Shown here: one piece after another, positions 32,371 through 55,338 of the stretch
Layout: every line of letters starts with the position of its first letter
Position numbering within the stretch: the stretch's first letter is position 1
Source of the DNA: an uncultured Gellertiella sp.
GTDB taxonomy: Bacteria; Pseudomonadota; Alphaproteobacteria; Rhizobiales; Rhizobiaceae
Assembly: GCF_963457605.1 (NCBI RefSeq)
Contig: NZ_OY735139.1
Coordinates: 1,702,501 to 1,766,500, forward strand
Direction of reading: 5' to 3'
Length of the DNA stretch: 64,000 bases
Notes under the pieces: model-generated
What the model was told of the DNA's origin: nothing
The model's input: only the letters and a program-made list of their open reading frames with translations
The model's database searches: none
Program-made: the position numbers and the translations under genes

Positions 32371-32402
32371 TAGAGTTTGTCAGGGAAAAGTGGAATCCGG
32401 TA
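32371..32402 (+). repeat. TAGAG palindromic repeat, truncated copy (R1)
   Basis: TAGAGTTTGTC and the following AGGGAAAAGTGGAATCCGG match the left half of copies R2 and R4 exactly; after 32402 the similarity stops, so the right arm and the second hairpin are missing. Confidence 0.8.
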
Positions 32403-32525
32403 TTCAATCCGGAAATCCGCAATGGCAAAGTCAAATGAGCCGGTTTTCGGGAAGGATGACGGCGATGCAACGCCCTGAACCCTGCTCCTGCGGGGGATCG
32501 GCAAGCACTCCAGATCGGGATCGAT

Positions 32526-41213: not shown

Positions 41214-41316
41214 TAGAGTTTGTCAGGGAAAAGTGGAATCCGGTTTTCCCGAATAGACAAACGACAACAAGGGGAGCCAGAGTCTGTCTGGTTCAATTTG
41301 AACCAGACAGACTCTA
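41214..41316. repeat. TAGAG...CTCTA palindromic repeat, intact copy (R2)
   Basis: 103 bases. Left arm: GTTTGTC pairs with GACAAAC around the inner stem GGGAAAA/TTTTCCC. Right arm: AGAGTCTGTCTGGTTCAA pairs perfectly with its complement over 18 bp. The ends TAGAG and CTCTA are inverted. The last TA supplies the TAG stop of the phytase-like gene on the minus strand. Confidence 0.85.
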
Positions 41317-42324
41317 GGGAAGAAGCCTGAACTCGAGCATCAGCGAGCGTTGCAGGAGCGAGTGATTGTCGTCGGAAACAAGCACCAGATGGGTGCTGCC
41401 ATCAGCAGCCGCGATTGCGTCAATGCCTTCCAGATTGTCGATCTGCTCGCCAAGGTCGGCGTCGAGAATGGTCTCGCCGTCGACCACGGCACCCGGCCTG
41501 ATGTCCCCAGCCTTGACCCGGATGATCCGGACCCCGATTCCCTCGGCGAGATTGAACCGCCGCTCCAGCAGCAGCAGATCGCCCGAAGCGAGGAACACGC
41601 CGTCGGACACGTCGAAGCCGTCGTGATGGCGGACCGAGAACTGGCCCTTCAGCGGGCCGTCGAGAATGGCGGCATGGAGATTGCCGTCGTCATTGTCGCT
41701 GCGCTCGGCAACGATGACCGGTGCCCCCTTGAGTGGCGACGCCTCGGGTGCGACCGCCACCGTTTCCAGACTGCCGTTGCTCTTCAGCCGGTTCTTCGGC
41801 ATCAGGATCGGGATCGACCTTGAGGGCTTCGCATGGATGAAATCCGGGCCGGGATAGACATCGACTCTATGCTTGCGCTCGAAGGACACCAGGACATCAT
41901 GCTTCAGGAAGGCAATGCCTTCGGAATCCATGTTGTATTTAGCCTGTTCGCTGTCCCCGCGTGCATCGCGCATCGAGGTGAGTTCGACCGCCTCAAGCCC
42001 GGACAGCCGCCCTTCGGCGTCGCGCGTGATGCGGCCCGTCAGCCAGTGGCCGGTATCGAGCACCATGGCGAATGTCCTGCCGTCGGGGCGAAAGCGGATC
42101 GAGGACATCGCGCCAAACATCGAATTCGACGAGGACAGCACCAGCCCGCCCAGAAATTCAAGCTGGCCGAACCGGGTTTCATCGCTGTTCAGGCGGAAGG
42201 TCCGGATCGGGCTGGCCGTGACTTCGCTCGCCTCGCTGTCCTGCGCCCGGCTGCCGACCGGCGCACCGGCAAGCAGGGTCGCTGCCAGCAGGGTCGCGAC
42301 AAGGGGCCTGGTCGATGCCCTCAC
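41314..42324 (-). CDS. Secreted esterase-like/phytase family protein
   Basis: 336 residues. A signal peptide (about 1-27, ending GSRAQDS) precedes a beta-propeller-like domain of the 'esterase-like activity of phytase' family: [28 protein letters not shown] and NLEGIDAI. Substrate unknown. The TAG stop lies in the edge of repeat R2. The start overlaps the cobT stop by four bases, which suggests translational coupling with a cobalamin gene. Confidence 0.82.
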
Positions 42325-46482: not shown

Positions 46483-46560
46483 TAGAGTCTGTCAGGGAAA
46501 AGTGGAATCCGGTTTTCCCGAAAAGACAAACGAAAACAAATTTTCTTGGAGTCCGTCTAT
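46483..46560. repeat. TAGAG palindromic repeat, copy with decayed right arm (R3)
   Basis: TAGAGTCTGTC, the inner stem GGGAAAA/TTTTCCC and AAAAGACAAACGAAAACAAA match R2 and R4. The right hairpin is degenerate (GGAGTCCGTCTATTCGC), so the right terminal repeat can no longer be found. Confidence 0.8.
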
Positions 46561-51299: not shown

Positions 51300-52253
51300 A
51301 TGCATAATTATCTCGATTTCGAAAAACCCATCTCGGATCTCGAAGGTAAGATTCACGAGCTGAAAAAGCTTGCTCAGGAAGACCAGAGCATCGATACGTC
51401 CGAAGAAATTACCCGGCTGGAAGCACGTGCTCGCGATGCCATGCGCGACATCTATTCGCAGCTGAATGCCTGGCAGAAGACCCAGGTGGCGCGCCATCCG
51501 CAGCGTCCGCATTTCATCGACTATGCCTCCGCCCTGTTTGACGATTTCACGCCGCTGGCAGGCGACCGCCGTTTCGGCGAGGACGCCGCCATCCAGACAG
51601 GTCTTGCCCGGTTTCGCGGCCAGGCGGTTGCCGTCATCGGCCAGGAAAAGGGCCATGACACCAAATCCCGCATCCTGCACAATTTCGGCAGTGCCCGTCC
51701 GGAAGGCTACCGCAAGGCGATCCGCGTCATGGAAATGGCCGACCGCTTCGGCCTGCCGGTCATCACGCTGGTCGACACGGCCGGGGCCTATCCGGGCGTC
51801 GGCGCGGAAGAACGCGGCCAGGCGGAGGCCATCGCCCGCTCGACCGAAATGTGCCTCAACCTGCGCGCCCCGATCATTTCGGTGATCGTCGGCGAAGGCG
51901 GCTCGGGCGGTGCCATCGCGATTGCCACCGGCAACCGGGTCTACATGCTGGAACATGCGATCTACAGCGTCATCTCGCCGGAAGGGGCGGCCTCGATCCT
52001 CTGGCGCGATTCCACCCGCGCCAAGGAAGCCGCGACCAACATGAAGATCACGGCAGAGGACCTGAAGGGCCTCGGTGTCATCGACGGCATCATCAAGGAA
52101 CCGGTCGGCGGCGCGCATCGCGACCCCGCCCAGGTGATCAATGCCACCGGCGACGTGATCGCCAGGGCGCTTGGCGAACTCGCTCCGCTCTCGGGCGATG
52201 CAGTCCGGGCGGACCGCCGCCAGAAATTCCTGAATATCGGCCGCAATCTCTAG
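51300..52253 (+). CDS. accA: Acetyl-CoA carboxylase carboxyltransferase subunit alpha
   Basis: 317 residues. It transfers carboxyl from biotin to acetyl-CoA with AccD, the first step of fatty-acid synthesis. FEKPISDLEGKI, RPEGYRKAIRVMEMAD, DTAGAYPGVGAEERGQAEAI and the oxyanion Gly-Gly loop GEGGSGGAIAIA match AccA. The TAG stop is the first three bases of the repeat R5. Confidence 0.97.
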   Translation: MHNYLDFEKPISDLEGKIHELKKLAQEDQSIDTSEEITRLEARARDAMRDIYSQLNAWQKTQVARHPQRPHFIDYASALFDDFTPLAGDRRFGEDAAIQTGLARFRGQAVAVIGQEKGHDTKSRILHNFGSARPEGYRKAIRVMEMADRFGLPVITLVDTAGAYPGVGAEERGQAEAIARSTEMCLNLRAPIISVIVGEGGSGGAIAIATGNRVYMLEHAIYSVISPEGAASILWRDSTRAKEAATNMKITAEDLKGLGVIDGIIKEPVGGAHRDPAQVINATGDVIARALGELAPLSGDAVRADRRQKFLNIGRNL

Positions 52254-52285
52254 AGACTGTCAGGTTCACTCAGACCTGACAGACA
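52251..52285. repeat. TAGAG-type palindrome at the end of accA (R5)
   Basis: TAGAG followed by ACTGTCAGGTTC, then GACCTGACAGAC: a hairpin of about 9-10 bp that resembles the right hairpin of R2 and R4 (CTGTCTGGTTC). It lacks the left GGGAAAA hairpin and the CTCTA end, so it may be a solo arm or a related element; it can also serve as accA terminator. The remaining 52286-52524 holds nothing else recognisable apart from a TTAACGA motif. Confidence 0.55.
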
Positions 52286-52524
52286 ATGGAATGCGGCATG
52301 GCGGTGGTGCCAGCCATAATCATGACGTGATTTCTGGGCATCTGGTCCGGGACAGGCTGGCGCGTCACGACGCACACGACCGTGAACCGCCATCGGTTCG
52401 TTTGCATTTTTTGCTTGAGCATTCGTTGTCCGATTGGTTAACGATTTGTGAAGCATAAGCTCCTATGGTTCGGTCTCCCGGGCCCTGGGCCCTCGTTTAT
52501 CAAAGACTTCGCGGGCAATCCGGA

Positions 52525-53787
52525 ATGCGCACTCGTCATCTTGTCATGCTCCTGGGCCTCCTGGCGCCCCTCCTTTCCGGCTGCACCGAAAGCCTGGAAT
52601 CGATCGACCTGTCGAAGGTTTCCAACAAGGTCGAATACCAGCTTTCCGGCAAGATCGTCGAAAAGATGCGGCAGATGGGGATGGCGACCACCTCGCCGAT
52701 CATGCTGCGCATCCTGAAGGAAGAAGGCGAGCTTGAGGTCTGGAAGGCCAAGAGCGACAATCGCTTCGACAAGATTGCCGAATACAAGATCTGTGCCTGG
52801 TCGGGCCGCCTCGGCCCCAAGGTCAAGGAAGGCGACCGTCAGGCACCCGAGGGCTTCTACCAGCTGACCCGCGCCAACCTCAATCCGAATTCGAAATATT
52901 ACCTGGCGATCAATACCGGCTATCCCAACAGCTACGACCGCTCGCTCGGACGCCAGGGGACCAACCTGATGATCCACGGCGCCTGTTCATCGTCCGGCTG
53001 CTATTCGATGACCGACGAACAGGTTCTGGAAATCTACGCGCTCGCCCGCGATGCGTTCCGCGGCGGCCAGCAGACCGTGCAGTTGCAGGCGCTGCCCTTC
53101 CGCATGACGGCAGAGAACATGGCCCGTCACCGGCTCAGCCCCAATTATGAATTCTGGAAGATGCTGAAGGTCGGCTATGACAATTTCGAGGTGACCAAGC
53201 GGCCGCCCGAGGTCAATGTCTGCAACAAGACCTATGTCTTCAACCAGGATTCCGGCGGCAAGGGCTTCAACCCCTCCGGTGCCTGCCCGGCGACGGTGAC
53301 CCCTCCGGCACTGCAGGCTGCCCTCACCAAATACAATGCCAAATACGATGCCGACTATGCGGCGGCGCTGCGCAAATATGAGGACAAGGTCTGGTATGAT
53401 CCGACCGAAGCCGAACGCAAGGCCGTGGTGGCCAGCACCCGCAAGGGCAAGGAACTCGCCTATGCCCCGACCGGCTCGGCGCTGGAGGCTGGCAAGCTGG
53501 TCAGCATCGCGGATTATCAGGCGCTGCAGAACAGTTCCGATCCACGCCTGACAAAACGCGACCTGAAAAAAGAGGCAACCGCGCCCGATGGCAGCAGGAC
53601 CGCCGCCAACACCCTGAAGCCTGCGGACAACAAGGCTGCGGCGCAGCATACCGGAGCGGGGACCGTCAACCCGGACACAGCCTCCGCCCCCGTGCCGGTA
53701 CCCTTGCCAAACCCGAATGCGCCGGTGACAACAGCCGCCAATGCCCCGGGGAAAAAGCCGTTCTGGAAGTTCTGGTCTGCCCAATGA
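52525..53787 (+). CDS. L,D-transpeptidase (YkuD) lipoprotein
   Basis: 420 residues from ATG 52525. The signal sequence ends with lipobox LLSGC (Cys20). The YkuD catalytic motif HGACSSSGCYSM has His151 and Cys159. The C-terminal third is low-complexity, rich in Ala, Pro and Thr, ending GKKPFWKFWSAQ. Such enzymes make 3-3 peptidoglycan cross-links or attach proteins to murein; rhizobia grow at the pole largely by L,D-cross-linking. The stop overlaps the tusA start (ATGA). Confidence 0.92.
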   Translation: MRTRHLVMLLGLLAPLLSGCTESLESIDLSKVSNKVEYQLSGKIVEKMRQMGMATTSPIMLRILKEEGELEVWKAKSDNRFDKIAEYKICAWSGRLGPKVKEGDRQAPEGFYQLTRANLNPNSKYYLAINTGYPNSYDRSLGRQGTNLMIHGACSSSGCYSMTDEQVLEIYALARDAFRGGQQTVQLQALPFRMTAENMARHRLSPNYEFWKMLKVGYDNFEVTKRPPEVNVCNKTYVFNQDSGGKGFNPSGACPATVTPPALQAALTKYNAKYDADYAAALRKYEDKVWYDPTEAERKAVVASTRKGKELAYAPTGSALEAGKLVSIADYQALQNSSDPRLTKRDLKKEATAPDGSRTAANTLKPADNKAAAQHTGAGTVNPDTASAPVPVPLPNPNAPVTTAANAPGKKPFWKFWSAQ

Positions 53788-54044
53788 ACACGCCTTCCGG
53801 CAACAGCTCCGCCCCTGAAGTCTACGATCTCAGGGGCCTGAAATGCCCGCTGCCGGTCATCAAGACGCGCAGGAAGATGCGCCAGATGCCGCCCGGCACG
53901 ACATTGCTGGTCGAGACGACAGATCCTCTGGCCGGCATAGACATCCCGCATTTCTGCAACGAAGACGGCCACGACCTGCTGTCGCAGGAAAAGACGGCGA
54001 CCGGCCACCGGTTTCTGATCCGCCGGAAAGGTTCCCCGGTCTAG
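53784..54044 (+). CDS. TusA-type sulfur carrier protein
   Basis: 86 residues. YDLRGLKCPLPVIKTRRKM contains the CPxP active-site motif of TusA/SirA/YedF. It passes sulfur to tRNA thiolation or molybdenum-cofactor pathways. The TAG stop is the left edge of repeat R4. Translationally coupled to the L,D-transpeptidase gene. Confidence 0.9.
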   Translation: MNTPSGNSSAPEVYDLRGLKCPLPVIKTRRKMRQMPPGTTLLVETTDPLAGIDIPHFCNEDGHDLLSQEKTATGHRFLIRRKGSPV

Positions 54045-54165
54045 AGTTTGTCAGGGAAAACACGCAAACGAAGTTTTGCGTTTGGAATCCGGTTTTCCCG
54101 AAAAGACAAACGAAAACAAAGGGAATTAGAGTCTGTCTGGTTCAATGTGAACCAGACAGACTCTA
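54042..54165. repeat. TAGAG...CTCTA palindromic repeat, intact copy with insertion (R4)
   Basis: 124 bases. It has the same left hairpin as R2, but with a 21-base insertion that itself forms a small hairpin (ACGCAAAC...GTTTTGCGT, 54060-54081). The right hairpin AGAGTCTGTCTGGTTCA/TGAACCAGACAGACTCT is perfect. Its two TA ends supply the stop of tusA on the plus strand and of the COG0523 gene on the minus strand. Confidence 0.85.
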
Positions 54166-55338
54166 AAACCGCATGCCCGGCACGGCGAGCGGATTGTCCT
54201 CCAGCGCGGCGCGGTCCGGCCTGTCGATGGCGGGCTTGCCGGTAAAGGCATCGAAGAGATCGGTGACGAACTGCTCGGGCAGGTCACGGGTGATCAGCAC
54301 CAGCCGGGTGCGCCGGTCGGATGGATCGGGCCAGGCAGCCAGCCGCACCGGCGGATGGAACACCGACTGCACCCCATGCAGGACCACGGGGCGCTCGGGA
54401 TAATCCGAGAGTTGCACGATGGCCTTCATCCGCAACAGCTTTTCCCCATGCGCCGAGCGCAGGAGATCGATGAACATGTCGAGCGCCATCGGCGACACCG
54501 GCCTGTCATGGAGGATCGAAAACGAGCGGATCGAGGCACTGTGACGGGTGACCTCATGGGCATGATGGTGATGATGATGCCCGTGGTCTCCATGACCGTG
54601 GTCACGCCCATGACCGTGGTCATGGGCGGGATTCCGGCAGGCCTCGTCCCGGCACCCGGCAAGTGCTTCCTCGCCCAGCCAGCGGCGGACATCGGCGGTC
54701 CTGGCCTCGGGGTCATAAAGCCCGTTGTCGAGCAGGTCCATGGCCGCTGTGGCCTGGTCCTGCGCGAAGCTCAGGATGGCGCGCGGATTGAGAACGGCCA
54801 GCCGCGCAACCAGACGCGAGATCGCTTCGGGATCGGCAAGATCGGTCTTGGTCAGCACCAGCCGGTCGGCAACCGCCGCCTGCTTGACGGCTTCATGATG
54901 GTTGTCGAGCGTGCTTTCGCCATTCACGGCGTCGACCAGCGTCACCATGCCCTCCAGCCCGAAATGTTCGGCGATAACAGGATTGCCGATCACCGACTGC
55001 ATCACCGGTGCCGGATCGGCAAGCCCGGTGGTTTCGATCACCACCCGGCGCAGGGCCTTCAGCCGCCCGGTCTGCATGCGGTCGATGAGATCGGCCAGAG
55101 TGTCGATCAGTTCGCCGCGAACGGTACAGCAGAGGCAGCCATCCGAGAGTTCGACAATATTGTCGCCCGAGCTTTCGACCAGCAGGTGATCGATGCCGAC
55201 ATCGCCGAATTCATTGATGATCACCGCGCAGTCGCGCATGCCGGGATCTTTCAGGATCCGGTTGAGCAATGTCGATTTTCCCGCTCCGAGAAAGCCGGTG
55301 ATGATGGTGACGGGGATGCGGCGGAGTGCGCGCGTCAT
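54163..55338 (-). CDS. COG0523 (CobW/ZNG1-type) GTPase with His-rich segment
   Basis: 391 residues. Walker A GFLGAGKST (15-23), the CxCC motif CLCC (68-71) and the GTP motif region VLTKTDLAD are intact. A His/Asp/Gly-rich stretch near 240-262 (HDHGHGRDHGHG, then a run of His) can bind several metal ions, as in zinc chaperones of this family; CobW for cobalamin normally sits in a cob operon, which is not so here. The TAG stop is supplied by repeat R4. It starts three bases after the stop of the upstream D,D-carboxypeptidase. Confidence 0.9.
   Translation of the reverse strand: MTRALRRIPVTIITGFLGAGKSTLLNRILKDPGMRDCAVIINEFGDVGIDHLLVESSGDNIVELSDGCLCCTVRGELIDTLADLIDRMQTGRLKALRRVVIETTGLADPAPVMQSVIGNPVIAEHFGLEGMVTLVDAVNGESTLDNHHEAVKQAAVADRLVLTKTDLADPEAISRLVARLAVLNPRAILSFAQDQATAAMDLLDNGLYDPEARTADVRRWLGEEALAGCRDEACRNPAHDHGHGRDHGHGDHGHHHHHHAHEVTRHSASIRSFSILHDRPVSPMALDMFIDLLRSAHGEKLLRMKAIVQLSDYPERPVVLHGVQSVFHPPVRLAAWPDPSDRRTRLVLITRDLPEQFVTDLFDAFTGKPAIDRPDRAALEDNPLAVPGMRF

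Follow-up and report, generated by a model that had tools for sequence, protein, structure and literature searches.

Relation to described small repeats

In Streptococcus pneumoniae, RUP repeats are thought to be mobilised by IS630-Spn1 (PMC2229807, PMC3049150), and BOX repeats were reported to encode the stop codon in 36 of 58 overlapping coding sequences (CDSs), with no strong evidence of truncation (PMC3049150). Here, we describe a short repeat from an uncultured Gellertiella sp. (contig NZ_OY735139.1), found in a stretch of 64,000 nucleotides (hereafter, the window) in which one copy, named R4, lies between the convergent genes tusA and COG0523 and has the stop codons of both at its edges. 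Judging by the passages of the cited papers that concern such repeats, RUP with IS630-Spn1 is the closest parallel for mobility, and BOX is the closest for repeat-encoded stops. Like RUP, the present repeat is about 100 bp long, uses a TA target, has terminal inverted repeats resembling those of an IS630 element in the same genome and is present in high copy number; unlike RUP, it is a different element in another host and combines two hairpins into a mosaic that contains nested inserts. Like BOX, it supplies the stop codon, mostly without truncation, and no relationship is claimed. Unlike BOX, for which the passages of PMC3049150 give no mechanism, its stops are accounted for by TA duplication at YTAR (Y, pyrimidine; R, purine) together with the GAG ends, as seen at empty sites.

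The repeat shares with IS630 and Tc1/mariner elements a duplicated TA and a CTAG-like target, and its putative mover has a DDE transposase; unlike IS630 and ISY100, it encodes no transposase itself. According to its title, a study by Tenzen and Ohtsubo from 1991 reportedly found that IS630 prefers the TA in CTAG. For ISY100, TA duplication by an IS630-family transposase was obtained in vitro, and the term "stop codon" is absent from the text of that paper (PMC2170065). Two further systems are comparable as far as the relevant passages describe them. MITEPsy1 of Pseudomonas syringae, a 100-bp miniature inverted-repeat transposable element (MITE), targets CTAG or YTAA (PMC3189936), nearly the YTAR rule, and differs by a reported 4-bp duplication, a suggested origin from the IS5-type ISPsy2 and few copies. 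RU-1 of enterobacteria is likewise a small TA-flanked repeat at a gene 3' end, with the opposite outcome, as its insertion removed the normal stop and lengthened ECA3499 (PMC2759123).

Among rhizobial repeats, RIME shows a likeness in general description, both being intergenic mosaics of about 105 bp with two palindromes. The RIME elements of Rhizobium, attributed to Osteras 1995, are said to be 108-109 bp long with two palindromes. RIMEs are mentioned or cited without sequence in the relevant passages of PMC2573895 and PMC1273637. When a full copy of the repeat (R2) was compared with a plasmid collection (E ≤ 1e-5), 25 records matched, none of them labelled S. meliloti, and the only sinorhizobium was Sinorhizobium sp. 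RAC02. In titles and abstract beginnings of the open-licence literature, no account of the element or of IS630 ends restoring stops was found among the matches listed.

Stop codons at the repeat edges

The repeat is very probably a non-autonomous IS630-type MITE that duplicates the TA of a YTAR site and rebuilds the stop codon as TAG through its GAG ends. In this model, the MITE would be mobilised in trans by an IS630-family (Tc1/mariner-type) transposase and would insert at the TA within YTAR with duplication of that TA; with GAG at both element ends, each junction would then read TA-GAG. When a pyrimidine stands before a TAA or TAG stop, the site fits YTAR, and insertion there would yield TAG with the stop unmoved. 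Because YTAR is its own reverse complement, the same rule would apply on the other strand, so that either strand would work, even for two convergent genes with a common TA. Since TAR codons are stops, an insertion with TA as the first two codon bases could not lie in the middle of a gene, and those in either of the remaining phases would disrupt or lengthen genes and would seldom be kept. Neighbouring genes should mostly keep their length, because the GAG ends rebuild TAG. Stop restoration is thus what the sequences of the YTAR target and the GAG ends predict.

The initial annotation proposed that removing R4 with one TA left behind would join GTC-TA-AAACC, and the recomputed junction is the same, giving tusA a TAA stop and COG0523 a TAG stop. 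At the corresponding site, the same-genus genome G004 has overlapping tusA and COG0523 stops with a single TA in common, and three other same-genus genomes (G001, G002, and G003) have no TA there. Excision of R2 by the same operation leaves the phytase-like gene with a TAA stop, also as anticipated, while the junction of the copy at accA is not computable because its right end has decayed. By their coordinates, tusA and accA on the plus strand and COG0523 and the phytase-like gene on the minus strand stop exactly on the TAG of a repeat edge, and Pfam confirms the identity of the four genes. The pattern has its limit within the window, as neither R1 (32371) nor the left edge of R3 (46483) coincides with a called stop.

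Across this genome, the 114 left-arm copies examined provided 170 non-nested edges. Scoring by a codon model, for which long open reading frames of the window served as the training set, gave 115 of these edges a facing coding frame, the stop of which had to be no more than 400 bp before the edge or 150 bp inside it. The distances from edge to stop in these 115 were 0 in 36 cases, 1-20 bp in 7, 21-100 bp in 34, and 101-400 bp in 38, and no single distance other than 0 was represented by more than three edges. The best-scoring frame towards the edge ended on the edge TAG in 38 cases versus five in the two other frames (score ≥ 9, at least 60 codons). Among the matches listed from other genomes, 83 edges had a facing gene, which ended at distance 0 in 39; this set comprised at least 120 stretches, 80 of them named, largely from Allorhizobium, Agrobacterium vitis, Rhizobium oryziradicis, and Shinella, with some metagenome-assembled genomes (MAGs). 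In third-party annotation, a CDS ends on the edge TAG in nine of the 11 plasmid records opened from the 25 that matched, and at both edges in three; H1 and H12 have no CDS end on an edge, and H14 and H19 represent one site in related plasmids. The coincidence of stops with repeat edges is real, general, and beyond chance.

The proposal in the initial annotation that an element starting with GAG restores the stop when it enters the TA of a stop codon is upheld by empty sites and by the YTAR comparison. The claim that TAG is always restored holds while the terminal T and the GAG are intact; the T of the TAG is lost at 11 of the 170 edges.

Target sequence and empty sites

The target was derived from 62 complete, non-nested copies, which remained after filtering 81 copies with a right end out of 114 left-arm copies examined (100 of 203 left-arm places were listed). 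The base before the left TA was C in 39, T in 18, A in four, and G in one, and the base after the right TA was G in 36 and A in 26, that is, a purine in 62 of 62. From these flanks, the target is YTAR with the TA duplicated.

Element-free orthologues, in which a single-TA junction had been expected, were compared with occupied sites. The plasmids of Shinella WSC3-e and HZN7 carry a copy flanked by a metallophosphoesterase gene and, convergent to it, a gene for a substrate-binding-domain protein (...CTT-TA-[element]-TA-GGG...), and Sinorhizobium sp. RAC02, which has no copy, reads ...CTC-TA-GGG... at this position; its CTAG contains both overlapping convergent TAG stops, according to the alignment, the record being unannotated there. 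In A. vitis, strain CG78 ends the corresponding gene with the same TAG where strain F2/5 carries the element; only the left junction of this pair is informative, because the right side differs and the right TA of the element has decayed. In the genus of the window, G004 has the shared single TA at the R4 site.

Insertion into TGA stops was considered as well, as the relatives mostly have TGA, and was ruled out by the purine after the right end in 62 of 62 copies and by the TAG of CG78 and RAC02.

Gene ends in same-genus relatives

Of 36 edge genes searched in same-genus genomes, 21 had orthologues, and together with accA these gave 22 genes and 81 gene-by-relative comparisons. The stop was at exactly the same codon in 51 of the 81 comparisons; per gene, its position was equal in at least one relative for 16 of 22 and in every relative compared for 11 of 22. 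Three edge genes were 1-5 residues longer than all relatives. The comparison of stop positions therefore indicates that truncation is not the rule.

At the copies of the window, the COG0523 stop is at the identical codon in the G001, G002, and G004 orthologues and one residue later in G003, and the phytase-like stop position is unchanged in all four genomes. Conserved protein ends of this kind suggest that insertion at stops would be harmless. The harmlessness that the initial annotation assumed is consistent with the conserved ends of COG0523 (apart from the one residue in G003), the phytase-like gene, and accA. The end of tusA differs in the relatives: its C-terminus is between one residue shorter and four residues longer than in the four relatives (offsets +1, -2, -2, -4), with no exact match.

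Putative mobilising element

The genome contains 11 matches of IS630-type DDE_3, among them one IS630 element in five TA-flanked copies, which are 99.7-100% identical (blastn) and 1053 bp long including both TAs. Its transposase lies in two frames (Pfam DDE_3, PF13358, 9e-33). The element ends, TAGAGTCTGTCAG / CTGACAGACTCTA, start with TA-GAG and match the repeat ends, and TAGAGTCTGTCAG is common to the repeat and all five copies; one of the copies is located inside a repeat element. The closest homologue (82% protein identity) also starts with TAGAGTCTGTCAG. Of 29 homologue loci, nine had ends that a simple test could locate, at a spacing of 1035-1055 bp, and in each of these nine the best-scoring ends begin with TAGAG. 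From the matching ends, we infer that this IS630 element moves the repeat in trans.

The exact arm pattern, with 284 matches in this genome, has no copy in the four same-genus genomes (G001 is 77% complete). These 284 arms, beside five near-identical IS630 copies, represent a recent burst.

A second multi-copy IS630-type element has the ends TAAAGYATGTCG (L373, L379, and L380; related L372 and L381) and starts with TAAAG in the three copies whose ends were read; its ends would regenerate TAA. It is a tentative and somewhat doubtful suggestion that a rhizobial IS630 clade and its MITEs evolved "stop-safe" ends, with a purine after TA (GAG or AAG) and a YTAR target, so that the stop is regenerated on either strand. 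If true, such ends would provide a reserve of harmless gene-end sites permitting bursts to hundreds of copies. For the present repeat itself, an end sequence that makes gene-end insertions protein-silent offers a simple, checkable reason why some small bacterial transposons can reach hundreds of copies in compact genomes, and it explains annotated genes with the stop inside a repeat. Overlapping convergent stops can also be separated by about 100 bp with neither protein changed.

Targeting, survival, and alternative explanations

Target choice and survival can be set against each other in a quantitative test. As a null, insertion was simulated at 335 YTAR sites in element-free relatives, of which 71 were inside genes and 264 elsewhere; in these counts G002:C32 and G003:C15, apparently one stretch, enter twice. 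The two stretches are near-identical matches with a one-base offset, and G002:C30 is the same locus again, so G002 may be contaminated or mixed. The 264 sites comprised 34 on a stop, 59 located 1-100 bp past a stop, four that were read into, and 167 elsewhere, and the 62 observed events comprised 24, 23, 0, and 15, respectively. Stops were thus enriched over the remaining non-coding YTAR sites (24/62 events vs. 34/264 sites, odds ratio 4.3, p = 1e-5).

Set against YTAR sites 1-100 bp past a stop, per edge, the stop excess in stretches from other genomes was strong (odds ratio 4.8, p = 1.5e-6). After matching by the -1 base with near-duplicates dropped, it was 4.7 (p = 0.0015 for C and 0.005 for T); the matched test kept 168 of 170 own-genome and 101 of 105 other edges, and edges with A or G at -1 (9/168 and 16/101) stand outside the odds ratio. 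The preference for stop codons held in the initial annotation is therefore clear against random non-coding YTAR sites (4.3-fold) and not clear in this genome against sites 1-100 bp past a stop. The recent burst shows a weak excess and the presumably older copies elsewhere a strong one, which suggests selective survival; in this comparison, genes were scored with a model from a single genome, each excess was measured against a different null set, and the older age of the other copies is presumed. Survival, rather than targeting, probably accounts for the stop pattern, and copies at stop codons would accumulate mainly through being tolerated.

Several observations weigh against the MITE model set out above. 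Relative to sites 1-100 bp past a stop, the excess within this genome was small, with an odds ratio of 1.8 per event (p = 0.11), 1.8 per edge (p = 0.05), and 1.3 after the matching described above. Six of the 22 edge genes, including tusA, match no relative's stop exactly, and two (C2:400207 and C2:3749003) fall short of every compared relative by 3-6 residues, so occasional in-phase truncation is possible. At matching positions, the relatives' stops are TGA in 38 of 51 cases, close to the background frequency in 200 kb of G004 C4 (138 of 181 genes); because the relatives mostly have TGA there, the ancestral TAA or TAG is a deduction at most sites of this genome. The TA is altered on the left in three and on the right in six of the 62 copies, the five IS630 copies are themselves off stops, and transposition was not observed.

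The two shortened genes are what would be expected if the element landed in the last codons and its TAG created a new, earlier stop, with only the in-frame cases surviving. We consider this highly improbable as the general explanation, because 16 of 22 genes share their stop position with one or more relatives and 11 with all compared, three genes exceed all relatives in length, A. vitis CG78 and RAC02 have their stop at this very position although they lack the element, and the purine at +1 in 62 of 62 copies means that an in-phase TAR target was already a stop. An origin of the pattern in chance or gene calling can be practically dismissed: the frame scoring does rely on a window-trained codon model, yet independent annotation agrees in nine of 11 records, and 36 edges fall at distance 0 with at most three at any other position.

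Two other explanations are compatible with a MITE that restores the stop through its GAG ends. The element might be actively steered to gene 3' ends or stops, for example by a transposase sensing termination or transcription ends, as the 4.7-fold matched excess of stop edges in other genomes could indicate; this appears unlikely, since the ratio is just 1.3 in the genome with the recent burst, which fits selection over time, and of the 62 events in this genome, 23 are located 1-100 bp beyond a stop and 15 elsewhere. It is also rather unlikely that copies are kept as useful 3' hairpins after the stop, acting as a terminator or messenger RNA stabiliser. R4 does fold strongly as RNA (-54 kcal/mol, z -8.4 versus 200 shuffles), and many copies are at or just past gene ends. 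However, the palindrome of R4 has no T run downstream, the exact arm pattern is missing from the four same-genus genomes, copies nest in one another, and of the 62 events 15 are neither at a called stop nor in the 100 bp beyond one.

Features of the window

The copies and their neighbouring genes are listed in Table 1. R4 exceeds R2 in length by 21 bp owing to an additional palindromic insert. An Rfam scan of the window at gathering scores returned two tRNAs and no other match.

Table 1. Repeat copies in the window and the genes or stop codons at their edges (positions count from the first base of the window)
Feature	Position	Strand	Description
R1	32371..32427	+	left arm, rest of the copy degenerate; coincides with no stop and lies 33 bp beyond the TGA that ends a gene predicted by codon score
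R2	41214..41316	+	full element, 103 bp from TA to TA; right edge is the phytase-like stop
Phytase-like gene	41314..42324	-	Pfam Phytase-like; ends on the right edge of R2
R3	46483..46539	+	left part intact, right palindrome decayed; left edge off any called stop
accA	51300..52253	+	Pfam ACCA; same stop codon position in the G001-G004 orthologues
Palindrome-only copy	52251..52288	+	right end decayed; left TAG is the accA stop
tusA	53784..54044	+	Pfam TusA 1e-22
tusA stop TAG	54042..54044	+	target TA and first G of the element
R4	54042..54165	+	full mosaic element, TA-GAG...CTC-TA; left hairpin and long right palindrome
COG0523/CobW stop TAG	54163..54165	-	target TA and first G of the element's other end; read from 54165 to 54163
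COG0523/CobW-like gene	54163..55338	-	Pfam CobW

Copy number, structure, and distribution

With up to three mismatches, the left-arm pattern matched 203 places genome-wide (124 forward, 79 reverse), compared with two for a reversed control. An apparent excess of plus-strand copies over 2.5 Mb was discarded, since minus-strand copies are present in that stretch. In full copies, which measure 103 bp (TA to TA) or more, a hairpin module on the left is joined to a palindrome of about 40 bp on the right, and many copies contain additional palindromic inserts or are nested within each other. As a short element without a transposase gene and in many copies, the repeat fits the definition of a MITE. 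Within the family, the exact arm is present in 24 of 151 genomes sampled, the window's own genome counted, with at most five matches in any of the 150 others.

Matches were also seen under unexpected labels. Plasmids NZ_CP084753.1 and NZ_CP084754.1 (L272 and L273; Roseateles sp. XES5, UNVERIFIED_ORG) have 19 and 17 matches to the otherwise rhizobial element, and their label may be wrong. Both modules are present in two MAGs with labels outside Rhizobiaceae, Arenimonas (L080) and Caulobacterales (L090), suggesting horizontal transfer or a binning error.

Several structural variants were noted. Two minimal copies of 49 bp (C2:767750-767798 and C2:2703847-2703895; L190 and L215) are near-perfect inverted repeats of only the left arm, TAGAGTTTGTCAGGGAAAA...TTTTCCCTGACAAACTCTA. 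An 18-bp palindromic unit of the CGCTCAAACTTGTTTGAG type is found in one to three tandem copies at one point of the left hairpin (for example, C1:168486, C2:416899, and C2:655114) and has the look of a mobile or expanding insert in its own right. L094, L115, L150, L155, and L160, which come from other genomes, are fusions of two repeat families, as a different repeat with an AGTACACGAC stretch followed by an ACCCCCCT-like stretch takes the place of the right half.
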